Shown: positions 9,251 through 41,017 of the stretch, one piece after another | Numbering within the stretch: the first letter of the stretch is position 1 | How the letters are laid out: each line of letters opens with the position of its first letter | From: Nevskiaceae bacterium | GTDB lineage: Bacteria; Pseudomonadota; Gammaproteobacteria; Nevskiales; Nevskiaceae | Assembly: GCA_004297005.1 (NCBI GenBank) | Contig: SCVA01000025.1 | Span: 1 to 64,000, forward strand | Direction: 5' to 3' | DNA: 64,000 bases | Notes under the pieces: generated by a model | What the model was told of the DNA's origin: nothing | The model's input: only the letters and a program-made list of their open reading frames with translations | Databases searched by the model: none | Position numbers and translations under genes: made by a program

Positions 9251-9264
9251 CGGCGCGAAAACCG

Positions 9265-10044: not shown

Positions 10045-10076
10045 ATCGTTATCTCCTCGCTGATTGCGCTTCTGTC

Positions 10077-11919: not shown

Positions 11920-11928
11920 GACGGGCCG

Positions 11929-13506: not shown

Positions 13507-13553
13507 TGCGGATTTCAGATTTCGGATTGCGGATTGAACAGGCAGAAGCGGAG

Positions 13554-13583
13554 CGGCTTGCGGACGGTCACCACCGCAAGCCG
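13554..13583 (-). repeat. Hairpin between SDR and fadD3-like genes
   Basis: CGGCTTGCGG (13554-13563) and CCGCAAGCCG (13574-13583) form a perfect 10-bp stem with a 10-nt loop. It lies in the 100-nt spacer of the leftward unit, upstream of the CoA-ligase start. Without a T-tract it may act as an RNA-stability or attenuation element. Confidence 0.45.
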
Positions 13584-13606
13584 AGCTCGGCGATCCGCAA
13601 TGGGCA

Positions 13607-14386: not shown

Positions 14387-14675
14387 GCTGCTCTCTCCTC
14401 AAGTTTGTTAGATCTATGGTGGTTGGTCGCTGCATCCGGGGCTTTCGCGACGCGGCCTGGGATGTCTTGTCGTCAGGCCGCGCAGGCTGCCTGCGCCGGT
14501 GGCTTGCGGCCGGTGGGCGGCATTATTTCGGCTGCCCTCTGGCTAGCCTTCGTCCAATAAGACGACCTGCCGGTGCTTGCTGCTGAGATCGACTCATCAA
14601 AACGGGTGAAGCTGTGCCGCAGGGCGGTCTCGATAATCCTGGTCGTTCAATTCCCCCCTTTCAGGCAGACCTTCC
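14387..14675. promoter_or_regulatory. Divergent control region with overlapping palindromes
   Basis: This region separates the leftward HSD/fadD3-like unit from the rightward dioxygenase/ipd operon. A perfect 9-bp inverted repeat, CGCGGCCTG (14451-14459) with CAGGCCGCG (14474-14482), runs into a second one, GCGCAGGC (14480-14487) with GCCTGCGC (14489-14496). Together they make a strong candidate operator for a repressor that controls both transcripts. The regulator gene is not adjacent. No promoter boxes could be assigned with confidence. Confidence 0.5.
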
Positions 14676-15590: not shown

Positions 15591-15600
15591 CAAGAACAAC

Positions 15601-16482: not shown

Positions 16483-16484
16483 AC

Positions 16485-17303: not shown

Positions 17304-17312
17304 GCGCGGCCC

Positions 17313-18206: not shown

Positions 18207-18221
18207 CCACCACAGAACGCC

Positions 18222-19295: not shown

Positions 19296-19314
19296 AAACG
19301 CAGCCGACTTTGTT

Positions 19315-19434
19315 CCCCTCCCCCCTCGTGGGGGAGGGGCTAGGGGAGAGGGGGGACTTTCGTTCCCGGCCCGCGTGCACCGTGAGCGAGCGCGGCCCCC
19401 TCTCCCCAACCCCTCCCCCACGAGGGGGGAGGGG
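19315..19434. repeat. Extragenic palindrome, C/G-tract family (copy 1)
   Basis: A roughly 40-base CT/GA-rich arm at 19315-19354 is nearly the reverse complement of 19396-19434, separated by about 40 bases. Each arm itself folds around CTCGTGGGGGAG. It lies inside the operon between ipdC and echA20, so transcripts carry a large hairpin here. A close relative is at 23618-23716. Confidence 0.8.
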
Positions 19435-19455
19435 CTCACTTAACCCGAGTCGCCC

Positions 19456-20220
19456 ATGAGCGAACAATTCAAAACCACCATCAGCGACGGCATTGCCGAG
19501 CTGGTCATAGCCCGGCCGCCGGTCAACGCCCTCAACGACGCCGGCTGGCATGCGCTCGCCGACGAGATCACCCGGCTCGGCACGCTGCCGGAGGCGCGAG
19601 TGATCGTGCTGCGCGCCGAGGGCCGTGGCTTCTGCGCCGGGGTCGACATCAAGGAGCTGGACAAGCACCCGGAGAAGATCATCTCGGTCAATGCCGGCAA
19701 TTACCGCAGTTTTGAAGCGGTGCACCGCAACCCCTTGCCGGTGATCGTCGCGGTGCATGGCTTCGTGCTCGGCGGCGGCATCGGCCTGGCCGGCGCGGCG
19801 GACATCGTCGTCGCCAGCGAGTGCGCGACCTTCGGCGTGCCAGAGGTGGACCGTGGCGCCATGGGCGGCGGCGCGCATCTGCAGCGGCTGTTCCCGGTGC
19901 AGAAGGTGCGCATGATGTATTTCACCGGCGACTCCATCACCGCCGCCGAGGCCTACCGGCTGGGCGCGATCGAAAAGGTGGTGCCCAAGGCCGAGCTGCG
20001 CGAGGCCGCACTCGCCATCGCCGCCAAGATCGCCGCCAAGAGCACGGTGATGATCCGGCTCGCGAAGGAATCGCTGAACGGCATCGAGGACGGCAACCTC
20101 GAAAGCAAGTACCGCTGGGAGCAGGGCTTTACCCTACAGGCCTACAGCAGCAAGGATTCAGCGGAGACCCGGCGCGCCTTCGTCGAGAAGCGCGAGGCCG
20201 AGTTCAAGGACAAGGCATGA
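19456..20220 (+). CDS. echA20: EchA20-type ring-opening hydrolase
   Basis: 254-residue crotonase-fold protein matching mycobacterial EchA20 in key words: ILRAEGRGFCAGVDIKEL near 51-68, GFVLGGGIGLAGAADIVVAS near 97-116, ATFGVPEVDRGAMGGGAHL near 119-137 and the C-terminal YRWEQGFTLQ. EchA20 hydrolyses ring D of the two-ring CoA intermediate, just before IpdAB opens ring C. Its stop overlaps the next start by 4 nt (ATGA), implying translational coupling with the dehydrogenase pair. Confidence 0.83.
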   Translation: MSEQFKTTISDGIAELVIARPPVNALNDAGWHALADEITRLGTLPEARVIVLRAEGRGFCAGVDIKELDKHPEKIISVNAGNYRSFEAVHRNPLPVIVAVHGFVLGGGIGLAGAADIVVASECATFGVPEVDRGAMGGGAHLQRLFPVQKVRMMYFTGDSITAAEAYRLGAIEKVVPKAELREAALAIAAKIAAKSTVMIRLAKESLNGIEDGNLESKYRWEQGFTLQAYSSKDSAETRRAFVEKREAEFKDKA

Positions 20221-21383
20221 GACTGGAATACACCGAACGACAGAAGAAATTCCGCGCCGAAGTCCGCGAGTGGATGGCGGCCAATGTGCCGAAGCAGGCC
20301 CTGACCAGCTTCGACACCAAGGAAGGTTTCGCGCAGCACCGCGCCTGGGAAGCCAAGCTCAACGAGGGCCGTTGGAGCGCGGTGACCTGGCCCAAGGAGC
20401 TCGGCGGGCGTAGTTGCGACCTCATCGACTGGCTGATCTTCGAGGAGGAGTACTGGCGCGCCGGCGCGCCGCTGCGCGTCAACCAGAATGGCGTATTCCT
20501 GCTGGCGCCGACGCTGATGGAGTACGGCACCGACGAACAGAAGGCGCGCTTCCTGCCGCGCATGGCGGCGGGCGAGGACATCTGGGCGCAGGGCTGGTCT
20601 GAGCCCGGCGCCGGTTCCGACATGGCGGCGATCCGCACCAAGGCCATCCTCGAGGGCGACCACTACGTCATCAATGGCCAGAAAACCTGGTCGACGCGCG
20701 CCGTGTTCGCCGACTGGTGCTTCGGCCTGTTCCGCACCGATCCGGACTCGCAGCGTCACCACGGCCTCACCTTCATCCTGCTGCCGCTGAACCTGCCGGG
20801 CATCACCATCCGCCCGATCAAGCAGCTCAACGGCCTGCCCGGCTTCGCGGAAATCTTCTTCGACAATGTCCGGGTGCCGGCCGCCAACCGCCTGGGCGCC
20901 GAAGGCCAGGGCTGGAACGTGGCGATGGCCACCGCCGGTTTCGAGCGCGGTCTGATGCTGCGCTCGCCGGCGCGCTTCCAGAAGACCGCGCAGAACCTGG
21001 TCGCGCTCTATCAGCGCCACCGCGAACATGCCGACCGCGATCCCTCGATCCGCGACGCGGTGCTGAAGAGCTGGATGGACGCCGAGGCCTATGCGCTTTC
21101 CACCTACCAGACCGCCAGCCGGCTGGTGCGCGGCGGCCACATCGGCCCCGAGGCCTCGACCAACAAGATCTTCTGGTCGGAGCTGGACCTGCTGATGCAC
21201 GAGACCGCCATGCGCATCCTCGGCGCCCGTGGCGAGCTGATGCCGGAAGCGCCGGAGGCCGCCGAGAGCGCGCCCTGGCTGGATGGCTTCCTGTTCGCGC
21301 AGGCCGGGCCGATCTACGCCGGCAGCAACGAGATCCAGCGCAACATCATCGCCGAGCGCATGCTCGGCTTGCCGAGGGCCTGA
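20217..21383 (+). CDS. ipdE1: Acyl-CoA dehydrogenase subunit IpdE1-like
   Basis: 388-residue FAD-dependent acyl-CoA dehydrogenase, alpha-type subunit. It has the flavin/substrate words WAQGWSEPGAGSDMAAI near 122-138, INGQKTWST near 153-161 and the C-terminal GPIYAGSNEIQRNIIAERMLG. Steroid degraders use alpha2beta2 dehydrogenases made from two adjacent genes. IpdE1-IpdE2 of mycobacteria dehydrogenates 5OH-HIP-CoA. The ATG at 20217 overlaps the echA20 stop; longer upstream starts would run through that gene. Confidence 0.82.
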   Translation: MRLEYTERQKKFRAEVREWMAANVPKQALTSFDTKEGFAQHRAWEAKLNEGRWSAVTWPKELGGRSCDLIDWLIFEEEYWRAGAPLRVNQNGVFLLAPTLMEYGTDEQKARFLPRMAAGEDIWAQGWSEPGAGSDMAAIRTKAILEGDHYVINGQKTWSTRAVFADWCFGLFRTDPDSQRHHGLTFILLPLNLPGITIRPIKQLNGLPGFAEIFFDNVRVPAANRLGAEGQGWNVAMATAGFERGLMLRSPARFQKTAQNLVALYQRHREHADRDPSIRDAVLKSWMDAEAYALSTYQTASRLVRGGHIGPEASTNKIFWSELDLLMHETAMRILGARGELMPEAPEAAESAPWLDGFLFAQAGPIYAGSNEIQRNIIAERMLGLPRA

Positions 21384-21385
21384 CC

Positions 21386-22444
21386 ATGGACTTCACCTTC
21401 ACCGAAGACCAGCTCTCGCTCAGCGACGCCATCCACAAGTTCCTGATGGTGGAAGCAGCCCCCGAGCTGCTGCGCGAGATCTGGGAAACCGAGTCCGGCC
21501 GCAGCGCCGAGATGCGCGCCAAGCTCGCCGACCAGGGCCTCACCGCGCTGTCGGTGCCCGAGGCCTACGGCGGCATGGGCCTGGGCGATCTCGACTGGGT
21601 GCTGATCCAGCAGGAGCTGGGCTACTACGCCATTCCCGATTCGCTCACCGCCACCGCCTATCTGGCGGTGTACCTGAGCAAGGCGCTGCCCGAGGACTCC
21701 AAGCTCAAGGCGCACTGGCTGCCGAAGATCGCCGATGGCAGCGCGCGCATCGCCGTGGGTCATCCGATCAATCCCTTCGTCGCCGATGCCGCCAACGCCA
21801 GCCTCTTGCTGCTCTGGCACGCCGACGAGCTGCACGCGCTGCGGCCCTCGGAAGCGACGCTGACGCTCAACCCCAGCATCGACTCCTCGCGCCGGCTCTA
21901 CCGCGTGCAGTGGACGCCCACTGACAAGACCCGCGTCTGCGGCGCCGAACAGGGCCGCGAGCTCTGGCAGGGTGTGATCAACCGCGCCGGTGTCGCCATC
22001 TCCGCGCAGCTGCTCGGCCTGGCCCAGCGCATGCTCGATCTGGGCACCGACTACGCGGCGCAGCGCAAGCAGTTCGGCAAACCGATCGGCAGCTTCCAGG
22101 CGGTCAAGCACCATCTGGCGGATGTTGCGGTGAAGATCGAGTTTGCCCGCCCGGTGGTGCAGCGCGCCGCGCAGTCACTGGCCACCGGCCACCCGCGCGC
22201 CAGCCTGCACGTCTCGCACGCGCGGCTGGTGGCCGGCGAGGCGGCGCGGCTGGCGGCGCGCAAGAGCATCCAGGTGCACGGTGCCATGGGCTACACCTGG
22301 GAAGCCGATCTGCAGATGTTCATGAAGCGCGCCTGGGCGCTCGACTCCACCTGGGGCGACGCCATCTTCCACAAGGCGCGCATCGCCGAATTCGTGCTGG
22401 CCGAGGGCGCTGCCCTGGGGCCGGCGGAAACCTTCACTCACTAA
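21386..22444 (+). CDS. ipdE2: Acyl-CoA dehydrogenase subunit IpdE2-like
   Basis: 352-residue partner subunit, shorter and more diverged than the alpha subunit as is usual for beta subunits of steroid acyl-CoA dehydrogenases. It keeps the helical C-terminal domain words RKQFGKPIGSFQAVKH near 230-245 and IQVHGAMGYTWEAD near 295-308. The middle beta-domain is degenerate, so catalysis probably needs IpdE1. The start lies 2 nt after the IpdE1 stop. Confidence 0.82.
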   Translation: MDFTFTEDQLSLSDAIHKFLMVEAAPELLREIWETESGRSAEMRAKLADQGLTALSVPEAYGGMGLGDLDWVLIQQELGYYAIPDSLTATAYLAVYLSKALPEDSKLKAHWLPKIADGSARIAVGHPINPFVADAANASLLLLWHADELHALRPSEATLTLNPSIDSSRRLYRVQWTPTDKTRVCGAEQGRELWQGVINRAGVAISAQLLGLAQRMLDLGTDYAAQRKQFGKPIGSFQAVKHHLADVAVKIEFARPVVQRAAQSLATGHPRASLHVSHARLVAGEAARLAARKSIQVHGAMGYTWEADLQMFMKRAWALDSTWGDAIFHKARIAEFVLAEGAALGPAETFTH

Positions 22445-22462
22445 GCAAGCAAGAGAAACCCC

Positions 22463-23611
22463 ATGGCCGAAGCCTATATCGTTGACGCCCTGCGCACGCC
22501 CACCGGCAAGCGCAAGGGCAGCCTGTCGCAGATCCACGGTGCCGATCTCGGCGCCCACGTGCTGAAGGCGCTGGTCGAGCGCAATGCCATCCCCGCCGAC
22601 GATTACGACGACGTGATCTTCGGCTGCCTCGACGCCATCGGCCCGCTCGCCGGCAACATCGCGCGCACCTGCTGGCTGTCCGCCGGCCTGCCGCTGCACG
22701 TGCCGGGTGTGACCATCGACCGCCAGTGCGGCAGCTCGCAGCAGGCGGTGCACTTCGCTGCGCAGGCGGTGATGTCCGGCACGCAGGACGTGATCGTCGC
22801 CGGCGGCGTGCAGACCATGACCCAGATCCCGATCTCCTCGGCGATGATCGCCGCCAAGCCGCTGGGCTTCGCCGACCCCTTCTCCGGCTCCAAGGGCTGG
22901 ACCGAGCGCTTCGGCACCGATCCGGTCAGCCAGTTCCACGGCGCGCAGCTGATCGCCGACAAGTGGAAGATCTCCCGCGAGGAGATGGAGCGCTTCTCGC
23001 TGGAAAGCCATGTGCGTGCCCGCCGCGCCATCGCCGAGGGCCGCTTCAAGAAGGAGATCGTGCCGATCAATGGCCTCGAGCACGACGAGACCACCCGCGA
23101 GACCTCGCTGGAGCAGATGCAGAAGCTCGAGCCGCTGGCGCCGGGCGGCACCATCACCGCCGGCGTTTCCAGCCAGACCGGCGACGCCGCCTCGGCGATG
23201 CTGATCGTGTCCGAACGCGCGCTGAAGAAGTACAACCTGAAGCCGCGCGCGCGCATCCAGCACATCAGCGTCTACGCCGACGATCCCATCCTCATGCTCA
23301 CCGCGCCGATCCCGGCCACGCATTACGCGATGAAGAAGTCGGGCATGAAGCTGGAGGACATTGACCTGGTCGAGATCAACGAGGCCTTCGCCCCGGTGGT
23401 GCTGGCCTGGTTCAAGGAAACCGGCTATCCGCACGCCAAGACCAACGTCAACGGCGGCGGCATCGCGCTGGCGCATCCGCTCGGCGCCACCGGCGTCAAG
23501 CTGATGACCACCCTGCTGCACGAGCTGGAGCGCACCGGCGGCCGCTACGGCCTGCAGACCATGTGCGAAGGCGGCGGCGTGGCCAACGTCACCATCATCG
23601 AACGACTCTGA
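22463..23611 (+). CDS. fadA6: Thiolase FadA6-like
   Basis: 382-residue thiolase with nucleophile Cys89 in DRQCGSSQQ, His338 in ALAHPLGATG and second Cys368 in TMCEGGG. Many words match mycobacterial FadA6 (VPGVTIDRQCGSSQQAV, IPISSAM, YGLQTMCEGGGVANVTIIERL). FadA6 cleaves acetyl-CoA from the ring-opened C/D product. It closes the core set of the operon. Confidence 0.85.
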   Translation: MAEAYIVDALRTPTGKRKGSLSQIHGADLGAHVLKALVERNAIPADDYDDVIFGCLDAIGPLAGNIARTCWLSAGLPLHVPGVTIDRQCGSSQQAVHFAAQAVMSGTQDVIVAGGVQTMTQIPISSAMIAAKPLGFADPFSGSKGWTERFGTDPVSQFHGAQLIADKWKISREEMERFSLESHVRARRAIAEGRFKKEIVPINGLEHDETTRETSLEQMQKLEPLAPGGTITAGVSSQTGDAASAMLIVSERALKKYNLKPRARIQHISVYADDPILMLTAPIPATHYAMKKSGMKLEDIDLVEINEAFAPVVLAWFKETGYPHAKTNVNGGGIALAHPLGATGVKLMTTLLHELERTGGRYGLQTMCEGGGVANVTIIERL

Positions 23612-23617
23612 GTATTT

Positions 23618-23716
23618 CCCCTCTCCCCTCGTGGGAGAGGGGTAGGGGAGAGGGGGTTCTCCGCGACGAAGTGCGCTCCCCCTCTCCCTCGATCCCTCTC
23701 CCACGGGGGGAGAGGG
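23618..23716. repeat. Extragenic palindrome, C/G-tract family (copy 2)
   Basis: The arm at 23618-23656 is nearly the reverse complement of 23678-23716, same family as 19315-19434 (central words CTCGTGGGAGAGG and CTCTCCCACGGG). It lies within the operon between fadA6 and the next SDR gene and probably forms a stable RNA hairpin. Confidence 0.8.
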
Positions 23717-23743
23717 AAGACCAGCTAACGAGGAAGCAGCATC

Positions 23744-24622
23744 ATGGGTATCTGCGACAACCGCACCATCATCGTCACCGGCTCCGGCGCAGGCCTGGGG
23801 CGTGAATACGCTCTGGCGCTGGCCGCCGAGGGCGCCAATGTCGCGGTCAACGACATTCGCCTGGAAGCCGCCGAAGGCGTGGTGAAGGAAATCCAGGCCG
23901 CCGGCGGCAAGGCGGTGGTGGCGCTGGGCGACATCACCAGCATGGCCGGCGCCGACGCGATCATCGCGGCCGCGCTTTCCGCCTTCGGCGAGGTGCATGG
24001 CGTGGTCAACAACGCCGGCGTGGTGCGCGACCGCATGTTCGCCTCGCTCAGCGAGGACGACTGGGACACGGTGATCCGCGTGCATCTCAAGGGCCACTTC
24101 TGCCTGGCCAGCAAGCTGGTGCAGCGCTGGCGTGACCAGGTGAAGGCCGGTGGCAAGCCGCTGGGCCGCATCGTCAACACCAGCTCCGGTGCCGGCCTGC
24201 AGGGCAACATCGGCCAGAGCAACTACTCGGCGGCGAAGGGCGGCATCGCCTCGCTGACCCTGGTGCAGGCGGCCGAACTCGGCCGCTACGGCGTCACCGC
24301 CAATGCGCTGGCCCCGGCGGCGCGCACCGGCATGACCGAAGGCCCGTTCGGCGCGATGATGAAGGCGCCGGAAGACGGCAGCTTCGATCACTACCACCCC
24401 GGCAATGTCGCGCCGCTGGTGGTCTACCTGTGCAGCGAGCTGTCGCAGGGCGTGAGCGGCAAGGTGTTCGAGGTGGAGGGCGGCAAGATCTCCATCGCCC
24501 GCGGCTGGAAGACCGGCACGGTGAAGAACAAGGGCGCCCGCTACACCCCGCAGGAACTGCACGAGGTGATCGGCGGACTGATCGCCACCGAACCCCCGGC
24601 GCAGAAGGTCTACGGCACCTAG
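23744..24622 (+). CDS. SDR, hydroxyacyl-CoA dehydrogenase type
   Basis: 292-residue SDR resembling the dehydrogenase domain of multifunctional enzyme 2: TGSGAGLGR at 12-20, Asp37 for NAD, NNAG at 89-92 followed by VVRDRMF, and catalytic Ser148, Tyr161 and Lys165. It probably oxidises a 3-hydroxyacyl-CoA in the HIP or side-chain route. A good ribosome site (AACGAGGAAG) lies upstream. It is the last gene of the long operon, and its TAG stop sits at the edge of an inverted-repeat element. Confidence 0.83.
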   Translation: MGICDNRTIIVTGSGAGLGREYALALAAEGANVAVNDIRLEAAEGVVKEIQAAGGKAVVALGDITSMAGADAIIAAALSAFGEVHGVVNNAGVVRDRMFASLSEDDWDTVIRVHLKGHFCLASKLVQRWRDQVKAGGKPLGRIVNTSSGAGLQGNIGQSNYSAAKGGIASLTLVQAAELGRYGVTANALAPAARTGMTEGPFGAMMKAPEDGSFDHYHPGNVAPLVVYLCSELSQGVSGKVFEVEGGKISIARGWKTGTVKNKGARYTPQELHEVIGGLIATEPPAQKVYGT

Positions 24623-24763
24623 AGCTTGTGAGTAAATCTACTGCGCTGCCCATCCGCGTCGTCATGCGGTGCTCGAAATCCTCACGCACAGTAGTGCGCT
24701 CCGGTTTCTGCGCTCCTATTCCTAGCGGCTGGGCATGCTCGCTACGATTTCTTCACAAGCTCT
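24621..24763. repeat. 143-bp element bounded by 11-bp inverted repeats
   Basis: AGAGCTTGTGA (24621-24631) and TCACAAGCTCT (24753-24763) are exact inverted repeats at the ends of a non-coding stretch with internal partial palindromes (CTACTG near 24638, CAGTAG near 24690). The left end overlaps the stop codon of the preceding SDR gene. It looks like a dispersed non-autonomous element or structured extragenic repeat. Confidence 0.6.
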
Positions 24764-24769
24764 GAGCCG

Positions 24770-25201
24770 ATGCCACTAAGTACCGAAGGCACGCGCCCGG
24801 AGGATTACCGCTACTGGGCCGACGAGCGCGTCCGCTTCTACGACCTCGACCTGATGGGCCATGTGAACAACGTGGCCTACACCATCTATGCCGAGTCGGG
24901 TCGCGCCGCCTTCCTGCGCCATATCGGTTTCTGGACCGAGACCGGCCGCCGCCAGAACGTGATCGCGCGGCTGGAGATCGACTACCGGCAGGAGCTGAAG
25001 TACCCGAACGAGCTGAAAGTCGGCCTGCGCGTTCTGAAGATCGGCGGCAGCTCCTTCACGCTCGGCATCGGCATCTTCGCCGGCGCCGTCTGCGTCGCCA
25101 CCGCGCAGGCGACGCTGGTGCGCTTCGATGCCGAGACCCGCAAGGCCATCGCGCTCGACGCCGCCGACCGCGCCCTGCTGGCGCCCTATCAGGTGGGCTG
25201 A
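24770..25201 (+). CDS. Hotdog-fold acyl-CoA thioesterase
   Basis: 143-residue 4-hydroxybenzoyl-CoA-thioesterase-type hotdog protein. The signature DLDLMGHVNNVAY at 25-37 contains Asp27 and the HVNN turn of the active site, with RLEIDYRQEL as the second strand motif. It would release CoA from accumulated acyl-CoA intermediates or recycle CoA in the pathway. The ribosome site is weak. The gene is close behind the inverted-repeat element. Confidence 0.82.
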   Translation: MPLSTEGTRPEDYRYWADERVRFYDLDLMGHVNNVAYTIYAESGRAAFLRHIGFWTETGRRQNVIARLEIDYRQELKYPNELKVGLRVLKIGGSSFTLGIGIFAGAVCVATAQATLVRFDAETRKAIALDAADRALLAPYQVG

Positions 25202-30640: not shown

Positions 30641-31438
30641 ATGTCGACAGAACCGCAAGCCGCACCCGCCTATGTTCCCGCCCACGGCCTGCTGAAAGGC
30701 CGCTCGGTGCTGATCACCGCCGCCGCCGGTGGCGGCATCGGTTACGCCGCCGCCAAGCGCTGCCTGGAAGAAGGGGCGCGGGCGCTGATGCTCTCCGACA
30801 TCCACCCGCGCCGCACCGCCGAGGCCGCCGAGGCGCTGGCGAAGGAATTTCCGGACGCGCAGGTGTTCGGCCAGGTCGGCAATGTCGCGGTCGAGGCCGA
30901 TGTCCAGGCCCTGATCGAGGCGGCCGAGGAAAAGCTCGGTGGCGTCGATGTGCTGATCAACAACGCCGGCCTGGGCGGCAGCAAGCGGGTCGTCGACATG
31001 AGCGACGAGGAGTGGAACAAGGTGCTGGACGTGACCCTGACCGGCACCTTCCGCATGACCCGCGCGATGCTCAAGAAGATGCAGCCGCGCGGTCGTGGCG
31101 CCATCGTCAACAATGCTTCGGTGCTCGGCTGGCGCGCGCAGAAGGAGCAGGCGCACTACGCGGCGGCCAAGGCCGGCGTGATGGCGCTGACCCGCTGCTC
31201 GGCGCTCGAAGCCGCCGACTACGGCGTGCGCATCAACGCGGTGTCGCCGTCCATCGTCTTCCACGACCATCTGCGCAAGTCGGCGCCGGAGTCGCTGCTC
31301 AAGGAGCTCGCCGCGCGCGAAGCCTTCGGCCGTGGCGCCGAGTCCTGGGAGATCGCCAACATCATGGTGTTCCTGGCCTCCGACTATTCCTCCTACCTGG
31401 TTGGCGAAGTGATCTCGGCTTCGTCACAACGTTCCTGA
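30641..31438 (+). CDS. ipdF: IpdF-type SDR
   Basis: 265-residue SDR with the unusual cofactor motif TAAAGGGIG at 26-34, NNAGLGG at 107-113 and catalytic Ser160, Tyr173 and Lys177. Long identical words to mycobacterial IpdF (NNASVLGWRAQ, HYAAAKAGVMALTRCSA, YGVRINAVSPSI, FLASDYSSYL) make orthology convincing. IpdF oxidises a hydroxyl of the HIP-derived CoA ester before ring opening. It is separated from the main ipd operon here and is followed 13 nt later by a MaoC gene. Confidence 0.85.
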   Translation: MSTEPQAAPAYVPAHGLLKGRSVLITAAAGGGIGYAAAKRCLEEGARALMLSDIHPRRTAEAAEALAKEFPDAQVFGQVGNVAVEADVQALIEAAEEKLGGVDVLINNAGLGGSKRVVDMSDEEWNKVLDVTLTGTFRMTRAMLKKMQPRGRGAIVNNASVLGWRAQKEQAHYAAAKAGVMALTRCSALEAADYGVRINAVSPSIVFHDHLRKSAPESLLKELAAREAFGRGAESWEIANIMVFLASDYSSYLVGEVISASSQRS

Positions 31439-31451
31439 ACAAACCAAGCGC

Positions 31452-31910
31452 ATGGCCAACAAGACTTTCTCCTCCGCCGAAGAACTCATCGCCGCCATCG
31501 GTCAGCCCTTGGGTGAAACCGAGTGGCTGACCGTCACCCAGGAGCGCGTCAATCTGTTCGCCGACGCCACCGACGATCACCAGTGGATTCATGTCGACGC
31601 GGTCAAGGCCAAGGACGGCCCCTTCGGCGCGCCGATCGCCCACGGCTATCTCACGCTGTCGCTGGCGGCGCGCTTCCTGCCGCAGCTGATCGAAGTGAAG
31701 ATGAAGATGGGCGTCAACTACGGTTGCGACAAGGTCCGCTTCCCGGCACCGGTGAAGGTCGGGCAGCGCATCCGCGGCAAGGGCGAGATCGTCGCGGTGG
31801 AGCAGACCAAGGACGGCGGCGTGCAGTCGACGCTGCGCCTGACGGTGGAGATCGAGGGCGGCGCCAAGCCCGCCTGCATCGCCGACACCATCAGCCGCTA
31901 CTACTTTTGA
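31452..31910 (+). CDS. MaoC-type (R)-enoyl-CoA hydratase
   Basis: 152-residue hotdog-fold hydratase. The hydratase-2 active-site motif is present as Asp42...His47 (DHQWIH), followed by the GAPIAHGYLTLSL helix. It would hydrate trans-2-enoyl-CoA to the (R)-hydroxyacyl-CoA, or act on a steroid-derived enoyl-CoA. It is co-transcribed with ipdF. Its last 15 bases are duplicated 186 nt downstream. Confidence 0.85.
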   Translation: MANKTFSSAEELIAAIGQPLGETEWLTVTQERVNLFADATDDHQWIHVDAVKAKDGPFGAPIAHGYLTLSLAARFLPQLIEVKMKMGVNYGCDKVRFPAPVKVGQRIRGKGEIVAVEQTKDGGVQSTLRLTVEIEGGAKPACIADTISRYYF

Positions 31911-32096
31911 GGCGCGGCGATTTTCAGATCCGCCGCGTAGCAGCGGCTGAAAATCGCCGTCTCAGCCCATAGTGCTGCTGCAGGCAGCCTGTGCGTAGCC
32001 GCGGCTGAAAATCGCCTTCCTGCCAGAATCGCGGCTCCTTTTTTGGAGCGCTAATTTCGAGAACGCATTCTCGAAGTTCGGCGCTACTACTTTTGA
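31896..32096. repeat. 15-bp direct repeat flanking an inserted palindromic segment
   Basis: CGCTACTACTTTTGA, the end of the maoC gene (31896-31910), recurs exactly at 32082-32096. Between the copies lie a hairpin (31916-31927 with 31947-31958), another copy of the word GGCTGAAAATCGCC near 32003-32016 and a perfect palindrome TTCGAGAA-N4-TTCTCGAA (32056-32075). This has the look of a small inserted or duplicated element with a target duplication. Confidence 0.6.
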
Positions 32097-32158
32097 ACGA
32101 GGCTTGCCCAGGCCCGGCGGCCTAGGCTCCTTGCCATTCCCGTTATCCGGAGAGCTGC

Positions 32159-33364
32159 ATGAACGAAGCCGTCATTGTCTCGGTTGCCCGTACCGCCATC
32201 GGCAAGGCCTATCGCGGGGCCTTCAACGACACCGAGGCGCCGGTGCTGGGTGGCGAGGTGGTGAAGGCGGTGGTGCAGCGCGCCGGCGTCAGCCCGGCCG
32301 AGGTCGATGACGTGCTGATCGGCTGCGCCGCCCAGCAGGGCACCCAGGCCTACAACCTCGGCCGCCTCTGCGCCTACACCGGCGGCCTGCCCGACACGGT
32401 GCCGGGCATGACGCTCGACCGGCAGTGCTCGTCGGGCCTGCAGACCATCGCCATCGCCGCCAAGAACATCCTCGCCGGCGAGCAGAACATCGTCGTCGCC
32501 GGCGGCCTCGAATCGATCTCGCTGGTGCAGAACAAGCACAAGAACAGCTACCGCTTCGTCTCCGAGGCGGTGCTCAAGGCGCAGCCGGCGGCCTACATCC
32601 AGATGATCGAAACCGCCGAGCTGGTCGCCCAGCGCTACGGCATCTCGCGCCAGCAGCAGGACGAATACTCGCTGCAGTCGCAGCAGCGCACCGCCGCCGC
32701 CCAGGCGGCGGGCAAGTTCAGCGACGAGCTGATCAGCTTTGAAACCACCAAGCAGCTCTACGACAAGGAAGGCAATCCCACCGAGAAGCAGGTGGTGAAG
32801 CTGGCCAAGGACGAGGGCAACCGCGCCGACACCACACTGGAGAGCCTGAGCGCGCTCAAGCCGGTATGGAAGGACGGCAAGTTCGTCGCCCAGGGCGCGC
32901 ACATCACCGCCGGCAATGCCTCGCAGCTTTCCGACGGCGCCGCCGCCACCCTGCTGATGAGCAGGGCCGCCGCCGCCAAGCGTGGCTTGAAGCCGCTGGG
33001 CATCTATCGCGGTTTCGCGGTGGCCGGCTGCAAGCCTGACGAGATGGGCATCGGCCCGGTCCACGCGGTGCCCAAGCTGCTGGCGCAGGCCGGCCTCAAG
33101 GTCTCCGACATCGGTCTGTGGGAACTCAACGAAGCCTTCGCGGTGCAAGTGATCTACTGCCGCGACCAGCTTGGCATCGCCAACGACCGCCTCAACGTCA
33201 ATGGCGGCGCCATCGCCATCGGCCATCCCTTCGGTATGTCCGGCGCGCGCATGGTGATGCACGCCCTGATCGAAGGCCGCCGGCGCGGCGTCAAGTACGT
33301 GGTGGTGACCATGTGCATCGGCGGCGGCATGGGCGCGGCCGGCTTGTTCCAAGTGGCCGATTAG
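32159..33364 (+). CDS. Acetyl-CoA acetyltransferase family thiolase
   Basis: 401-residue thiolase with nucleophile Cys90 in DRQCSSGLQ, His356 in [10 protein letters not shown] and Cys386 in TMCIGGGMG. All catalytic residues are present. It resembles degradative thiolases of the FadA5 type that shorten steroid side chains or finish beta-oxidation. It is distinct from the fadA6-like gene at 22463. The start ATG follows CCGGAGAGCTG. It stands alone between repeat-rich spacers. Confidence 0.82.
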
Positions 33365-33558: not shown

Positions 33559-34671
33559 ATGGCAAGCACCGCCCCGGGCTCCCGCCCGGGCATAACGCCA
33601 GCCCGCGCCGTCAGCGCCTGGCCGTCCTATGTCGTCTCACTGATCGTATTGCTGGCGGCGGTCTACGCCTTCTCGCCGCGTCCGATGCCGCCGTTCCCGG
33701 CCACCGAGGTGCATCCCGACGGCCTGCAGATCAACGCCCTGCTCAAGGCCGGCGGCAAGCTGCTGGCGGCGGGTGAGCAGGGGCGCATCCTGATCGCCGA
33801 CAGCGAGAAAGGTCCCTGGGCCGAAGCCAAGGTCGAACCGCAGCGCGGCAGCGCGCTCACCCAACTGACGGCGGTTGGCGCCAAGACCCTGATCGCGGTC
33901 GGCCACGACGGCTGGATTCTGCGCAGCGAGAACGGCGGCGCGAGCTGGCAGGAGGCGAACTTCGACTCCGAAAGCTCCGATCCCCTGTTGGGCATCGCCG
34001 GCCCCTATGCCGGCAAGCTCTACGCCTTTGGGGCCTTCGGCAAGCTGCTGGTGTCCCTCGACGACGGCAAGACCTGGCGTCAGCAGCCGATCGTGGAGAA
34101 CAGCGTAGCCGGCGATGCCGCCGCACCGGCCGGGGAGGAGGACCCCTATGCCGATCCTTTCGCCAATATCTCCACCGGCGGCGGCATCGCCGACGGTCAC
34201 ATCAACGCCATGACTCGGGCCCCGGACGGCGCGCTGGTGATGGTCGGCGAGCGCGGCATGATCGCCCGCTCCACCGACGAGGGGGCGAGCTGGACGGCAG
34301 TGCCGCAGGTCTACACCGGCTCCTTCTACGGCCTGCTGGCGCTGCCGCCGAAAGGCCTGCTGGCCTACGGCATGCGCGGCAATGTCTTCCGCAGCGAGGA
34401 CAGCGGCCAGACCTGGGTGAAGGTCGAGACGCCGCTGGCGCTGTCGCTGTTCGGCGCCACCAGCACCCTGCGTCGGGAGATCATTCTGGTCGGCGAGAAC
34501 GCGGTGGTGATGGTGTCCAAGGACGGCGGCAAGAGCTTCAAGCTCGGCTCGCTGGGCGAGCAGCAGCGGCTCGCCGCCGCCCTGCCGCTCGATAGTGGCG
34601 ACCTGCTTACCGCCGGCGAGTTGGGCCTCGCCCTGCGCAATCCCTACCGTGGTACCGGAGTGCAGCCATGA
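33559..34671 (+). CDS. YCF48/BNR-type beta-propeller protein
   Basis: 370-residue protein with one N-terminal membrane segment (about residues 22-40), then a periplasmic beta-propeller of Asp-box/YCF48-type repeats (GWILRSENGGASWQEA, LLVSLDDGKTWRQQ, MIARSTDEGASWTAV, NVFRSEDSGQTWVKV, VMVSKDGGKSFKLG). GAGGAG precedes the ATG at 33559, so this start is preferred over one 21 nt earlier. Its stop overlaps the RND gene by 4 nt, which couples the two. It is probably a periplasmic partner of that transporter. Confidence 0.8.
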   Translation: MASTAPGSRPGITPARAVSAWPSYVVSLIVLLAAVYAFSPRPMPPFPATEVHPDGLQINALLKAGGKLLAAGEQGRILIADSEKGPWAEAKVEPQRGSALTQLTAVGAKTLIAVGHDGWILRSENGGASWQEANFDSESSDPLLGIAGPYAGKLYAFGAFGKLLVSLDDGKTWRQQPIVENSVAGDAAAPAGEEDPYADPFANISTGGGIADGHINAMTRAPDGALVMVGERGMIARSTDEGASWTAVPQVYTGSFYGLLALPPKGLLAYGMRGNVFRSEDSGQTWVKVETPLALSLFGATSTLRREIILVGENAVVMVSKDGGKSFKLGSLGEQQRLAAALPLDSGDLLTAGELGLALRNPYRGTGVQP

Positions 34672-37247
34672 GGCGCATGGAAAGCTTCGTCAAGGCCTGC
34701 TCCGCGCTGCTGCTGGGCTGGCGCAAACCGCTGTCGGTGCTGTTCACCGCCATCACCCTGTTCTTCGGCTGGAGCGCCACCCACATCAAGCTCGACCCGG
34801 GCTTTTTGAAGCTGATCCCCATCGAGCATCCGTATATGCGGACGATGATGGAGTACATGAAGGACTTCTCCGGCGCCAACACCCTGCTGGTGAACCTGCG
34901 CTGGAAGGGCGAGGGCGACATCTACAATCCGGAATTCATGGATGCGATGCGCAAGGCCACCGACGAGGTGTTCTTCATCCCCGGCATCAACCGCACCGCC
35001 GTCGCCTCCATCTACACGCCCAACACCTATTACATCGAGATCACCGAAGACGGCTTCAAGGGCGAGCCGGTGGTGCCGGCGAAGTTCTCCGGCCAGCCGG
35101 AAGAACTTGATCGCGTGCGCCACAACGTCAAGCTCTCCGGCCAGATCGGCCTCTTGGTCGCCAACAACGGCAAGTCGGCGCTGATCCGCGCCAATCTGCA
35201 GGACTACGATCCCAACAAGCCACAGGAAGAACAGCGCGTCGACTACTGGGAGGTGCAGAACCGACTGGAGGAAATCCGCGGCCGCTTCGAGAATCCCAAG
35301 AAGTACGTCTACAAGCTCAAGGAAGATCATCCGCCCCTGAAGGCCGGGGAGGTCGTGGCCGAGGGCTATGTCGATCACGGCATCGCGCTGTTCATGCAGA
35401 CCTTCAAGGCGCTGCGCCCGGTCGAAGGCCAGGACGCGCCGCAGGCGATCGCGGTCAAGGGCGGGGAGCTCAGCGTCGAGACCGTCGACAACCCCGAATA
35501 CAACGACAAGATCGAGGTCAATATCATCGGCTTCGCCCGCCTGCTCGGCGATGTCATCAAAGGCCTCTTGGGCGTGTTCGCCTTCTTCGCCCTGGCCTTC
35601 CTGATCACCATGGCGCTGCTGTACTTCTACTCGCGCTCGGTGCGGCTGACCGTGGTCGCCCTGGTGGTGGCCCTGCTGCCGGTGCTCTGGCTGATCGGCA
35701 CCCTGCCGCTGATCGGTTTCGGTGTCGACCCGATGTCGATCCTGGTGCCGTTCCTGATCTTCTCCATCGGCGTCTCGCACGCGGTACAGATGACCAGCGC
35801 CTGGCGCCACGAGGTGGTGGCCGGCGCCGACTCGGTGCAGGCCGCCGACTCCGCCTTCCGCAAGCTGTTCATCCCTGGCGCGGTGGCGCTGCTGACCAAC
35901 GCGCTGGGCTTCGCGGTGATCATGTTCATCGACATCCCCATCGTCCATGAGCTGGGCATCACCGCCTGCATCGGCGTGCTGCTGATGATCGTCACCAACA
36001 AGATGATCCTGCCGATCATCCTCAGCCATGTCAGCCTCGAGGAGTCCTGCAAGAACCACCACCGTTCGCGCGCCAAGAGCCGCAGCGAGAACGGCTTTAG
36101 CGAGCGCTGCTGGAAGTGGATCGGCCGCTGTGCCGAGCCCAAGACCGCGCTGCTGATGTTCGGCATTGGCCTGGGCGTGCTGAGCGTAGCCACGGTGCTA
36201 TCGCGCGGCATGGTGATCGGCGACCTCGGCCGCGGCGTGCCCGAGCTGCGTCCGGACTCGCGCTACAACCGCGACAACGACGTGATCGGCAGCAATTACA
36301 ACATCGGCACCGACCTGCTGACGGTGATCGCCGAAGCCAAGGATTTCGACGGCGACTCCTGTCTGCATTACGAGGTGGTGGGGCTGATCGATCGCTTCGA
36401 GCTCTACCTGCGCGGCGTTGATGGCGTGCGCTCGGTGACCAGCGTCGCCGGCATCGGCAAGCTGGTGATCGCGGCCTTCAACGAGGGCAATCCGCGCTGG
36501 CGCGCATTGCCGCGTACCCAAACCGGCCTCTCCACCGGCTCCAAGGCCTTCGACCCCAACCTGGGCCTGAACAACGAGGGCTGCAAGGCCATCCAGGTGA
36601 TGATCTTCACCAACAACCACGACGGCACCACCATTGCCCACGTGGTGGCCGAGATCAAGAAGTTCATCGAGGCCAATCCGACGCCGGGCGTGAACCTGCG
36701 CCTTGCCACCGGCAATGTCGGCGTGATGGCCGCCACCAACGAGGCGGTCGCGGAAGCTGAGGAGACCATGCTGCTCGCCATTTTCGGCGCGCTGACCCTG
36801 CTCTGCCTCATCACCTTCCGCTCACTCAAGGCGACGCTCTGCGTGCTGGTGCCCTTGGCGCTGGTGTCGATCTGCTGCAACGCGCTGATGGCGATGCTGG
36901 GCATCGGCCTGAAGGTGGCGACGCTGCCGGTGGTGGCGCTGGGCGTGGGCGTGGGCGTGGACTACGGAATCTACCTGTTCGAGCAGATCCAGCACGAGAT
37001 GCGCGAGCACGGCTCCAGCTTCCGCGAGGCTTTCGAGGCGGCGATGCGCCAGCGCGGCAGCGCGGCGGTATTCACCGCCATCACCATGGCCATCGGCGTC
37101 GGCACCTGGACGCTGTCGGCCCTGAAGCTGCAGGCCGACATGGGCCTGCTGCTGGCCTTCATGTTCGTGGTCAACATGCTCGGCGCGATCTGCCTGCTGC
37201 CGGCGCTGGGCGCCTGGTTTTTCGGCAGCGAGGGCAAGAAGGGCTAG
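34668..37247 (+). CDS. RND/MMPL-family transporter
   Basis: 859-residue inner-membrane protein with two repeats of one helix, a large periplasmic loop and five or six helices, as in RND/MMPL hydrophobe exporters. The second half carries LPVVALGVGVGVDYGIYLFEQ near 756-776, the family motif with the proton-relay Asp. Family members move lipids, hopanoids or other hydrophobic molecules. Coupling to the YCF48-like gene and proximity to DUF1302/DUF1329 genes recur in many degraders of lipophilic compounds. Transport of steroid or CoA-pathway intermediates is inference. Confidence 0.85.
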   Translation: MRRMESFVKACSALLLGWRKPLSVLFTAITLFFGWSATHIKLDPGFLKLIPIEHPYMRTMMEYMKDFSGANTLLVNLRWKGEGDIYNPEFMDAMRKATDEVFFIPGINRTAVASIYTPNTYYIEITEDGFKGEPVVPAKFSGQPEELDRVRHNVKLSGQIGLLVANNGKSALIRANLQDYDPNKPQEEQRVDYWEVQNRLEEIRGRFENPKKYVYKLKEDHPPLKAGEVVAEGYVDHGIALFMQTFKALRPVEGQDAPQAIAVKGGELSVETVDNPEYNDKIEVNIIGFARLLGDVIKGLLGVFAFFALAFLITMALLYFYSRSVRLTVVALVVALLPVLWLIGTLPLIGFGVDPMSILVPFLIFSIGVSHAVQMTSAWRHEVVAGADSVQAADSAFRKLFIPGAVALLTNALGFAVIMFIDIPIVHELGITACIGVLLMIVTNKMILPIILSHVSLEESCKNHHRSRAKSRSENGFSERCWKWIGRCAEPKTALLMFGIGLGVLSVATVLSRGMVIGDLGRGVPELRPDSRYNRDNDVIGSNYNIGTDLLTVIAEAKDFDGDSCLHYEVVGLIDRFELYLRGVDGVRSVTSVAGIGKLVIAAFNEGNPRWRALPRTQTGLSTGSKAFDPNLGLNNEGCKAIQVMIFTNNHDGTTIAHVVAEIKKFIEANPTPGVNLRLATGNVGVMAATNEAVAEAEETMLLAIFGALTLLCLITFRSLKATLCVLVPLALVSICCNALMAMLGIGLKVATLPVVALGVGVGVDYGIYLFEQIQHEMREHGSSFREAFEAAMRQRGSAAVFTAITMAIGVGTWTLSALKLQADMGLLLAFMFVVNMLGAICLLPALGAWFFGSEGKKG

Positions 37248-37250
37248 GCC

Positions 37251-37694
37251 ATGGCGACGCGCCGCAAGCCGCGCAGCACCGCCGAAACTGGCGGCGCACG
37301 CGGCCTGCTGGCGCGGCCGCGCGAGGCCTCGCTGGATGTCGATGGCGCGCAGTTGGCCCGGCTGCGGCGCGCCTGCCTGGCGCTGCCGGAAGTGTGCGAG
37401 CGGCTGGGTCATGGCTCGCCCTGCTTCTACGCCGGCAAGAAGATCTTCGCGATGTACAGCGACAACCACCACGGCGACGGTCGCCTCGCGGCCTGGCTGA
37501 AGGCGCCGCCCGGCGCGCAGGAGATGCTGCTGGAGACCTCGCCCGAGGCTCTCTTCCGTCCACCCTATGTCGGTGCCTATGGCTGGATCGGTGTGCACCT
37601 GCGCCATTGCGACGATGCGGCACTGGCGAATCTGGTCGGCAGCGCCTACCGCGCGGCGGCAAACAAGAAGCTGCTGGCGCTGCTCAACGACTAG
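37251..37694 (+). CDS. MmcQ/YjbR-family protein
   Basis: 147-residue protein with the YjbR fold: LRRACLALPEVCERLGHGSPCFYAGKKIFAMY near 41-72, then the strand-helix pattern ending APPYVGAYGWIGVHL-like (PPYVGAYGWIGVHL near 104-117). YjbR proteins are small, often called DNA-binding, without a settled function. The start lies 3 nt after the RND stop, so it travels on the same transcript. Confidence 0.75.
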   Translation: MATRRKPRSTAETGGARGLLARPREASLDVDGAQLARLRRACLALPEVCERLGHGSPCFYAGKKIFAMYSDNHHGDGRLAAWLKAPPGAQEMLLETSPEALFRPPYVGAYGWIGVHLRHCDDAALANLVGSAYRAAANKKLLALLND

Positions 37695-37983
37695 GTCCGG
37701 CGGCGCCCCGCAGCCGGCACAGGCGCAACCGCCGCTCGTTCGCCAGTGCATTCGTCGGCTCAGAGCCGCCGTTCAGTCGGACTGCGGTCAACGCTGGTGA
37801 GCCTGCCTCGCCGCTGCGCGCGCGGCGAGCGACTGAATCCCTTGGAGTTTTCCCGCCGCCTCGGCGCGGCGCGCGGCGCGGCTGTGCCCGGCCATCGTCT
37901 GCATGGACTAGGAGCTGTCTCCATTGCCCTGGCCATGATCGCCTCAGCCGGACATCCAACAAAGTCCGGGAGGAGATATAAAA
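37695..37983. other. Spacer before the DUF1302 gene
   Basis: No gene is seen. CTCGCCGC near 37808 and GCGGCGAG near 37823 form a GC-rich hairpin. A strong GGGAGGAGATA ribosome site at about 37970 serves the DUF1302 gene. Confidence 0.45.
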
Positions 37984-39597
37984 ATGAAGTCCGGCAACAC
38001 GGTCGGCGGTCGGCGTGCATGGCGCCCCGCACACAAGCTATTTGCGGCGGCGCCGCTGCTTTGGCTACCACTGGCGCAGGCCGGCTCGGTCAATCTGAGC
38101 CCCAGCCTTTCACTCGACTATCTGGCCAACCTCACCTACAGCGCCGCCTGGCGGCTGGAAGATCCCGATCCGGCACTGACCGCCGACGTCAACAGCGACG
38201 ACGGCAATCGCAACTTCGCCGGCGGTTCGATGATCAACAACCGGCTGGCGCTGCTCGGCGAGCTGAATCTGAAGCAGGGGCGGCAGGGCGTGTTCCTGCG
38301 CGGCAGCGCCTTCTACGATCAGGTCTACCGCGACAGCAACGACAACGACTCGCCGAGCACGGTCAACAAGAGCGGCGACAACACCGCCTTCACCTCCGAG
38401 GCGCGGCGCTATCTGGGCATGCGCGCGCGGCTGCTCGACGCCTACGTCTACAGCAGCTTCGACCTGGGCTCGACCGCGCTGGATCTGCGCGTCGGCGACC
38501 AGGTGGTGAGCTGGGGCGAGAGCCTGTTCTTCCCCAATGCCAGCGGCGCGCAGTCGCCGGCCGATGCCACCAAGTCGAACGTGCCGGGCACCGAGGTGAA
38601 GGAGATTCTGTTGCCGGTCGGGCAGGTCTACGCGCAATGGGGCCTGACCTCGCGCTGGAGCGTGGCCAGCTACTGGCAATGGCAGTGGAAGGGCACCGAG
38701 CTGAACCCGCCCGGCGCCTACTTCAGCGGCAGCGACGTAGTGGGGCCGGGTGCCAGCGTGCTGCTGGTGCCGGCCTTGGCGCCGTTCGGCGCCGACCGCG
38801 TGCCGCGCGGTGCCGACCTCGCACCTGGCGATGACGGCCAGTGGGGCGTCTCCACCAAGTTCCTGTTCGGCGAGGCCACCGAGGCCGGGCTCTACTACCT
38901 GCAGTACAGCGACAAGAATCCGGTCGGCGTGCAGTTGGACTACACCGCCATCCAGGTCGCCCCCGGCGTGTTCGTGCCGGTACCGGCGCAGTACCACGTC
39001 GCCTACACCGACGACATCCAGATGTTCGGCACCAGCGTCTCCACGCAGCTGTTCGGCACCGCGCTGACCGGCGAAGTGAGCTATCGCCAGGACGCCGGCA
39101 TCGGCATCAACGCCCCCAGCGCCACTCCAGGGCGCGGCGACGCGGTGCAGGCCAATCTCGGCTTTACCCGGCTGATACTGCCGACCTCGCTGTGGGACAC
39201 GCTGACCCTGGTCGGCGAGGCCTCCTGGGTGGAGCTGACCGAGGTGCAGGCCCTGACCGTCGGTGGCACCACCTACGACCAGCCCAGCAATGGCGACAGT
39301 GCCGGCGCCTACCAGTTCTTGGCGCAGTTCGGCTATCAGCAGGTGCTGCCGGGCTGGGATCTGACCGTCTCGCTGGTGCATGCCAATGCCTTCAAGGGCA
39401 AGTCGGCCATCGGCGGTGCGCTGGGCAGCCTCACCGGCTCGGCCGACAAGCGCTACAGCCTGGGGTTTGGCTTCAAGTACCTGCAAAACCTCGAGCTGCA
39501 GCTGGCCTACAACGGCTATCACGGCACGCCCGACCCCATCAATCGCTCGTTGGCCGACCGCAGCAATCTCGCCTTCAGCGCCAAGTACAGCTTCTGA
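37984..39597 (+). CDS. DUF1302 outer-membrane protein
   Basis: 537-residue DUF1302 protein. A signal peptide of about 33 residues ends in LAQAG. The rest is rich in beta-strands with aromatic girdles (QVVSWGESLFFPNASG near 172-187 is a family hallmark) and ends in Phe, as outer-membrane barrels do. DUF1302 genes usually sit beside DUF1329 genes in degraders of steroids, terpenes and aromatics. A role as a channel or receptor for hydrophobic substrate is likely but unproven. Confidence 0.83.
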   Translation: MKSGNTVGGRRAWRPAHKLFAAAPLLWLPLAQAGSVNLSPSLSLDYLANLTYSAAWRLEDPDPALTADVNSDDGNRNFAGGSMINNRLALLGELNLKQGRQGVFLRGSAFYDQVYRDSNDNDSPSTVNKSGDNTAFTSEARRYLGMRARLLDAYVYSSFDLGSTALDLRVGDQVVSWGESLFFPNASGAQSPADATKSNVPGTEVKEILLPVGQVYAQWGLTSRWSVASYWQWQWKGTELNPPGAYFSGSDVVGPGASVLLVPALAPFGADRVPRGADLAPGDDGQWGVSTKFLFGEATEAGLYYLQYSDKNPVGVQLDYTAIQVAPGVFVPVPAQYHVAYTDDIQMFGTSVSTQLFGTALTGEVSYRQDAGIGINAPSATPGRGDAVQANLGFTRLILPTSLWDTLTLVGEASWVELTEVQALTVGGTTYDQPSNGDSAGAYQFLAQFGYQQVLPGWDLTVSLVHANAFKGKSAIGGALGSLTGSADKRYSLGFGFKYLQNLELQLAYNGYHGTPDPINRSLADRSNLAFSAKYSF

Positions 39598-39643
39598 GCC
39601 GCCCCAGGGCCGCTCAGTGATTTCCTGCATTAGGAGAATCCAC

Positions 39644-41017
39644 ATGCTTCAACTACATCCGGGCCGCCGCACTCTGCTGGCCAGCCTGCTATGCCTCGCG
39701 CTGCTGCCGGCCGCGCAGGCGGCGGTGAGCGCCGAAGAAGCGGCGCAGCTGGGCAAGACCCTGACTCCGACCGGCGCCGAAATGGCCGGCAATGCCGATG
39801 GCAGCATCCCTGCCTGGAGCGGCCAGTGGCTGGGCGCGCCGCCGCAGGTGAAGTACGACGGCAAGCGCAACGCCGACCCTTATCCCGGCGAAAAGCCGCT
39901 GTTCGTCATCACCGCCCAGAACCTCGCAACCTACAAGGACCGCCTGAGCGAGGGGCAGAAGGCGCTGTTCGCCAAGTACCCGACCAGCTACCGGATGCCG
40001 GTGTACGCGACCCATCGGGATTTCCGCTACAGCGACCAGCTCAACGAAAACGTCCGCCTCAACGCCACCGGCGCCAAGCTTTCCAACGACGGTCTGACGC
40101 TCAAGGGCGCCTATGGCGGCCCGGCGTTTCCGATCCCCAAGACCGGCATCGAGGTGGTGTTCAACATCATGACCACCGCCTCGGCCTGGATGTACGAGGC
40201 GCCCAATGTCGGCGCCTATGTGCAGCCGGGTGGCAGCGTTGGCTGGTCGCGCACCACGCTGGCCGCCTACAACCGCTACCAGAAGGGCGACGACCGCGCG
40301 CACTGGGACGACGGCATCTACTCGCAGAGCATCAGCGTGCAGAAGGCGCCACCGCGCGACGCCGGCAAGATCTCCTACACCGTCAACACCTTCGACTTTG
40401 TCGGCGCGCCGCGTCAGGCCTGGCAGTACGACCCCGGCTCGCGGCGCCTGCGCAAGTCGCCGGATGTCGGCTTTGACTACCCGATGCCCACCGGCCCGCG
40501 CGTGGTGGACGAGCAGAACGGCTTCAACGGCTCGCCGGAGCGCTTCGACTGGCAGTTGATCGGCCGCCGCGAAATCTACGTGCCCTTCCACACCAACCGG
40601 CTGGAAGACCCGGCCACCCGCTATGCCGACGTCATCAGCACCCGTGGTCACCCCAACCCCGATCTGATCCGCTGGGAGCTGCGCCGCGTGTGGGTGGTGG
40701 AGGGCACGCTCAAGAAGAGCACCCGCCACGTCTATGGCAAGCGCCGCTTCTACGTGGAGGAGGACTCCTGGCAGTCGCTGCTGGCCGACAACTACGACAC
40801 CCGCGGCCAGCTCTGGCGGGTGGTGAGCAATTGCGCCGCCTATGCCTACGACGGCAAGTTCTACTACCTCAACGCCAGCTTCTACCAAGACCTGCAATCG
40901 GGCGCCTACAGCGCCGAGAACATCACCAGCGAGGAGCCGACTTCGGCACGCTTCAACCGTCGCGAGCCGGGTGCCAACGAGTTCACCCTGGACGGCGTGC
41001 GCCGCGGCGGTAACTAA
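39644..41017 (+). CDS. DUF1329 periplasmic protein
   Basis: 457-residue DUF1329 protein with signal peptide about 1-26 (LLPAAQAAVS), the N-terminal word LGKTLTPTGAEMAGNADGSIPAWSG near 35-59 and the long beta-rich body typical of the family. The ATG at 39644 has TAGGAGA upstream; the frame is open further left but only within the DUF1302 gene. It probably works with the DUF1302 barrel in moving a hydrophobic ligand across the periplasm, in the manner of Lol-type carriers. That comparison is inference. Confidence 0.82.
   Translation: MLQLHPGRRTLLASLLCLALLPAAQAAVSAEEAAQLGKTLTPTGAEMAGNADGSIPAWSGQWLGAPPQVKYDGKRNADPYPGEKPLFVITAQNLATYKDRLSEGQKALFAKYPTSYRMPVYATHRDFRYSDQLNENVRLNATGAKLSNDGLTLKGAYGGPAFPIPKTGIEVVFNIMTTASAWMYEAPNVGAYVQPGGSVGWSRTTLAAYNRYQKGDDRAHWDDGIYSQSISVQKAPPRDAGKISYTVNTFDFVGAPRQAWQYDPGSRRLRKSPDVGFDYPMPTGPRVVDEQNGFNGSPERFDWQLIGRREIYVPFHTNRLEDPATRYADVISTRGHPNPDLIRWELRRVWVVEGTLKKSTRHVYGKRRFYVEEDSWQSLLADNYDTRGQLWRVVSNCAAYAYDGKFYYLNASFYQDLQSGAYSAENITSEEPTSARFNRREPGANEFTLDGVRRGGN

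Follow-up and report, generated by a model that had tools for sequence, protein, structure and literature searches.

AmeABCD of Castellaniella defragrans is a monoterpene-related system that has been studied with a deletion mutant (PMC6394551). It comprises AmeA (DUF1302), AmeB (DUF1329/LolA), AmeC (COG4447/YCF48) and the RND protein AmeD, which is placed in a separate lineage within HAE3 (COG1033). Growth of the mutant was poor when monoterpenes were the only carbon source, yet normal on acetate with up to 5 mM limonene. It accumulated slightly more Nile Red, which the authors read as a sign of export, and it released Nile Red with nearly the same kinetics as the wild type (PMC6394551). In Pseudomonas putida, all four positions PP_0765/PP_0766 and PP_2018/PP_2019 were needed for growth on Tween 20, and the DUF1329 protein co-folds, as judged by predicted contacts, both with the barrel and with the RND protein (PMC10866462). 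We infer that PP_2018 is the YCF48 homologue of this set. An earlier reading of our locus from its sequence only (the sequence-only reading) called such gene sets functionally undefined, which was wrong in view of the AmeABCD deletion mutant (PMC6394551) and the fitness data and co-fold from P. putida (PMC10866462). Such four-family sets have already been described in bacteria that degrade terpenes, aromatics or fatty esters.

The locus described here lies in a window of 64,000 nucleotides, by which we mean the whole stretch of DNA that was analysed. Judged by its enzyme families, the window is a steroid ring degradation island of a Stagnimonas-like bacterium (Table 1). Apart from the SDR, MaoC and thiolase genes that directly precede YCF48, the island holds genes for a steroid 5-reductase-like protein, a FadD3-family ligase, an HsaC-like dioxygenase, an IpdA-like CoA transferase, an IpdE2-like dehydrogenase and a thiolase. 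The FadD3-family ligase and several thiolases and SDRs of the window score above curated cut-offs, and its HsaC-like, IpdA-like and IpdE2-like enzymes score below the equivalog cut-offs. We also observed an apparent fusion of 776 aa with two acyl-CoA dehydrogenase units (27546-29876), which are separate ORFs in several relatives, and another of 880 aa with two CoA-transferase family III stretches (42305-44947). The latter gene is followed by what is probably a restriction/defence cassette, a stretch of lower GC content (45348-48324) with genes for a C5 cytosine methyltransferase, a MAE_28990-type HEPN protein and a GmrSD_N-domain protein.

Table 1. Features of the window discussed in the text.
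Feature	Position	Strand	Basis
Remaining steroid catabolic island	8333..25201	.	family matches
SDR - MaoC - thiolase catabolic genes directly upstream of YCF48	30641..33364	+	
YCF48-type beta-propeller, N-terminal membrane anchor (AmeC-like)	33559..34671	+	Pfam PF14870 (PSII_BNR/YCF48) 6e-12
HAE3/MMPL-type RND inner-membrane transporter (AmeD-like), 859 aa	34668..37247	+	Pfam MMPL 1e-25
YjbR-family protein	37251..37694	+	Pfam PF04237 1e-12
DUF1302 outer-membrane beta-barrel (AmeA-like)	37984..39597	+	Pfam PF06980 3e-143, full length
DUF1329 periplasmic protein, LolA-like fold (AmeB-like)	39644..41017	+	Pfam PF07044 2e-108, full length

The sequence-only reading had listed YCF48, RND, YjbR, DUF1302 and DUF1329 genes at this locus, and all five were recovered at their positions and on their strand, with matches to the respective families. 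The 4-nt overlap that it reported is likewise present, the YCF48 stop and the RND start sharing the letters ATGA (34668-34671). YjbR starts 3 nt after RND and is followed by a gap of 289 nt before DUF1302, which is separated from DUF1329 by 46 nt; a scan for sigma-70 promoters and terminators found nothing exceeding shuffled sequences. The YCF48 start at 33559 is correct, with AGAGGAG about 7 nt upstream and relatives aligning there. The start at 39380 listed for the DUF1329 ORF is too early; the true start is 39644, and the protein read from there carries the Sec signal peptide that had been claimed for it. Hydropathy analysis also confirmed the membrane anchor of YCF48 as a single, N-terminal hydrophobic segment and revealed at least 11 such segments in the RND protein. 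DUF1302 has a Sec signal peptide and a C-terminal Phe, the latter typical of outer-membrane barrels, and YjbR is without signal or membrane segment.

The YCF48 profile matches the PDB Ycf48 structures 5ojr/2xbg (4e-24). Sequence searches of DUF1302 and DUF1329 against the PDB gave no useful match. AlphaFold models of these two proteins, built on alignments of 7 sequences, are of low confidence (pLDDT 49 and 46, respectively) and were used for fold class only. In fold searches, the low-confidence DUF1302 model matches 16-18-strand outer-membrane porins, and that of DUF1329, likewise of low confidence, matches LolA-superfamily structures including the DUF1329 crystal structure 4z48. DUF1329 also matches Pfam LolA_like at 5e-6, which is below the cut-off.

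For the RND protein, the best NCBIfam model is TIGR00921 (HAE3; 2e-52), but the score of 178 bits stays below the cut-off of that model, 352. Assignments as an HpnN hopanoid transporter (TIGR03480, 81 bits vs 752; NF052374, 32 vs 1100) or as a BstA sterol transporter (NF045600, 32 bits vs a cut-off of 1400) were rejected. HpnN, BstA, MmpL3 and NPC1 have the RND fold and sterol-, hopanoid- or lipid-type cargo, with a proton relay expected at TM4/TM10. The RND protein of the window differs from them in its TM4, which carries Ser-His rather than an acidic residue, and in its partners, a LolA-like carrier, a propeller and a barrel. Its intramembrane residues are S370-H371-Q374 in TM4 and D765-Y766 in TM10. 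Ser-His-x-x-Gln is present in TM4 of 46/46 RND proteins of the cassette type, in which the TM10 Asp is also kept; this makes the TM4 His and the TM10 Asp candidate proton-relay residues, and the TM4 motif should be usable as a family signature. In other Pseudomonadota, we observed distant triads (L096, L097 and L098) in which genes for a LolA-like protein, an RND protein and a DUF1302-like barrel are consecutive. Their RND proteins have Ala-Asp-x-x-His instead of Ser-His-x-x-Gln in TM4, and they are without YCF48, which therefore looks like a later addition.

The sequence-only reading had proposed co-occurrence of the four families as a check, and this expectation was borne out. Each family was searched in the same 299 Pseudomonadota genomes; scores were bimodal, and full-strength matches were counted with thresholds chosen after the scores were seen. 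On this basis, RND, YCF48 and DUF1329 occur in an identical set of 45 genomes, and DUF1302 in the same 45 and 2 more (Fisher p <1e-50, not corrected for kinship; ~27 genera). Among the matches listed, YCF48 lies on the same strand and within 300 nt of RND in at least 62 of 66 cases, DUF1302 lies within 3 kb of DUF1329 in at least 83 of 120, and all three partners lie within 8 kb of at least 37 of the 66 RND copies. Several gene orders and some split loci are found in other genomes. The protein trees of the four families correlate across 18 complete cassettes (Mantel r 0.77-0.94; 0.62-0.86 with two divergent cassettes removed). Moreover, the two cassettes of the window's own genome (the one described here and L080) belong to separate clades in each of the four trees, so that species history alone is insufficient to account for the congruence. 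Whole four-gene cassettes are also carried by the Vibrio alfacsensis plasmid pVa1, beside meta-cleavage pathway genes (L146 7523-14121), and by a conjugative plasmid of P. putida YC-AE1 (L148 4760-11304). Presence in the same genomes, agreement of the trees and plasmid-borne cassettes together argue that the four families work together, and these comparisons support YCF48, RND, DUF1329 and DUF1302 as one functional unit.

Linkage within this unit varies among relatives. The RND protein shares 96% identity with its Stagnimonas aquatica counterpart, and the relatives are mostly from Solimonas, Nevskia, Hydrocarboniphaga and Panacagrimonas. YCF48 precedes RND in 28/28 of these relatives, and SDR, MaoC and thiolase stand before the two genes in 24 of them. 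Only Stagnimonas, Algiphilus and Zavarzinia have the DUF1302-DUF1329 pair closely behind RND. On the corresponding contigs of S. flava, S. terrae and others, the DUF1329 that lies ~8-26 kb downstream is a different one (43-45% identity). A close orthologue of the window's DUF1329 (75-79% identity) is present in only three others of the genomes checked, so its pairing with the window's RND is not one-to-one. A constant link between the pair and RND was rejected, since adjacency varies by lineage; the tight linkage in the Stagnimonas-like lineage is that of YCF48-RND with SDR-MaoC-thiolase, rather than that of the pair with RND. The earlier inclusion of YjbR in the set did not survive this comparison: among the 28 relatives it is present only in Stagnimonas loci, and it is best described as a lineage-specific passenger outside the conserved set.

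Should the locus bring together two unrelated modules by chance, with the YCF48-RND pump belonging to the steroid operon and the DUF1302-DUF1329 pair serving something else, the 289-nt gap after YjbR and the separation of pair and RND in most relatives would be accounted for, as would the 18 of 66 RND copies that, among the matches listed, have YCF48 as their sole partner and neither DUF1302 nor DUF1329 within 8 kb. We nevertheless consider this highly improbable, because co-occurrence at the genome level is near-perfect even where the genes are unlinked, the trees of linked sets are congruent, the four genes come together again in several different orders, and the unlinked modules of P. putida have a common phenotype (PMC10866462).

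Almost certainly, the four-protein set transports oily molecules through the cell envelope. More specifically, we favour, with a probability of about 0.6, a four-component trans-envelope machine of the AmeABCD kind, which would here be dedicated to steroids or hydrophobic breakdown intermediates. In such a machine, DUF1302 would form the outer-membrane pore, and the ligand would be bound in the periplasm by DUF1329, a carrier of LolA fold. YCF48, a propeller anchored in the membrane, would dock on the periplasmic domain of RND and present the DUF1329 carrier to it, and RND, driven by the proton gradient, would shift the ligand between this carrier and the inner membrane, with proton coupling likely via H371 (TM4) and D765 (TM10). 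NPC2 and NPC1 handle sterols in a comparable hand-over. The trans-envelope route drawn by the sequence-only reading is partly supported: a single unit that spans both membranes and lies in a steroid island is retained, YjbR is no longer a part of it, and RND as the energy source for the DUF pair is kept as a conjecture. The location of the DUF pair away from RND in most steroid-island relatives, its pairing with this RND that is not one-to-one, the low confidence of the two AlphaFold models and the export reading of the ameABCD Nile Red data count against the machine model.

The own genome (3.57 Mb) encodes 13 full DUF1329, 15 DUF1302 and 3 YCF48 proteins and 4 RND proteins of the cassette type. 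Six of the 13 DUF1329 genes lie within 5 kb of DUF1302 (0.5 expected, p ~1e-4), and 4/4 cassette-type RND genes lie within 5 kb of DUF1302 or DUF1329 (0.3 expected, p ~5e-5). One RND gene, on contig C40 (L082 8966-13027), has an M48-like peptidase gene before it and DUF1329 after it, with neither YCF48 nor DUF1302 nearby. Relatives carry 7-22 DUF1329 genes per genome, the 22 being those of Solimonas fluminis. These copy numbers, in the own genome and in relatives, reflect a strong expansion of paralogues. Each inner pump is thus matched by several outer pairs, and the simplest reading would be one inner pump shared among them. Extended to a hub-and-spoke scheme of steroid uptake resembling NPC2/NPC1, the conserved YCF48-RND acceptor with its Ser-His/Asp relay would be fed by interchangeable, more numerous DUF1302-DUF1329 pairs that set the substrate range; we offer this as a tentative proposal. 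The many copies per genome also bear on the idea that the cargo of the set is endogenous envelope lipid (hopanoids, phospholipids or outer-membrane lipids) and that the set aids the envelope against hydrophobic substrates without carrying any substrate. Such a role would suit the LolA fold, the kinship with HAE3/HpnN and the distant triads of LolA-like protein, RND and barrel, but it is improbable given this multiplicity, the repeated linkage to catabolic genes, in the window and on a plasmid, and the absence of the set from most genomes, including 14 controls.

As to the direction of transport, our analysis slightly favours import for catabolism over export. Working outward, the same four-part machine would export toxic steroid or dead-end intermediates from the inner membrane via the periplasm and DUF1302, and would thereby confer tolerance. 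HpnN, the studied HAE3 member, exports hopanoids, which counts against import. Export is also the reading that the authors of the AmeABCD study gave to the lower tolerance and higher Nile Red content of their mutant (PMC6394551), and it agrees with the aromatic-stress reading of the Aph-regulated operons described below (PMC6449761). We regard it as less likely than import. Our lean to import follows from the sole-carbon defect of the ameABCD mutant, the rescue of its limonene phenotype by acetate and its near-equal Nile Red kinetics (PMC6394551), together with the need for the P. putida set on Tween 20 (PMC10866462); the ameABCD phenotype is compatible with a loss of uptake and also with a loss of tolerance, and the RND gene is locked into a catabolic operon.

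In a survey of 2016, the route of steroids across the two Gram-negative membranes was stated to be unidentified (PMC4810484). Because the four families co-occur almost perfectly, the set is a prime candidate for the transport of steroids and likewise of terpenes, aromatics and fatty esters. H371 and D765 provide two candidate residues for energy coupling and, if the model is true, functions would be assigned to DUF1302 and DUF1329, two widespread families that still go by their DUF names.

Among described systems, PP_0765/0766 and PP_2018/2019 resemble the window in that DUF1302 and DUF1329 are joined by a periplasmic protein and an RND-type transporter, but they are split between two separate loci and concern a fatty-ester substrate (PMC10866462). 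The COG4447-COG1033-PF07044-DUF1302 operons under AphS/AphR/AphT in Betaproteobacteria unite the window's four families in one operon and adjoin aromatic degradation genes; they relate to aromatic compounds, by regulatory inference only (PMC6449761). The highly expressed 'Nanopod' cluster of the benzene degrader ORM2a brings together a porin-like protein, DUF1329, YCF48 and MMPL, but it belongs to Desulfobacterota, its barrel is not called DUF1302, and a universal stress protein gene lies inside it (PMC13101534). The same paper's claim that DUF1329 deletion impaired growth on phenanthrene was set aside, being unconfirmed by the 2011 nanopod paper, which deleted npdA. Like the window, AmeABCD adjoins catabolic genes for a lipophilic substrate and is made of the same four families (PMC6394551); in the window, DUF1302, DUF1329, a periplasmic YCF48 and RND are all encoded together on one strand. 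The gene orders differ, with YCF48-RND-(YjbR)-DUF1302-DUF1329 in the window and DUF1302-DUF1329-YCF48-RND in AmeABCD. An ameABCD cassette in the narrow sense was rejected on account of this permutation and the inserted YjbR, and since orders also vary and loci are split elsewhere, we file the window under the wider four-family set. The setting differs as well, monoterpene in AmeABCD and, by gene content, steroid in the window. By the family composition described in these papers, the set of the window belongs to the known AmeABCD type, here in a steroid setting.
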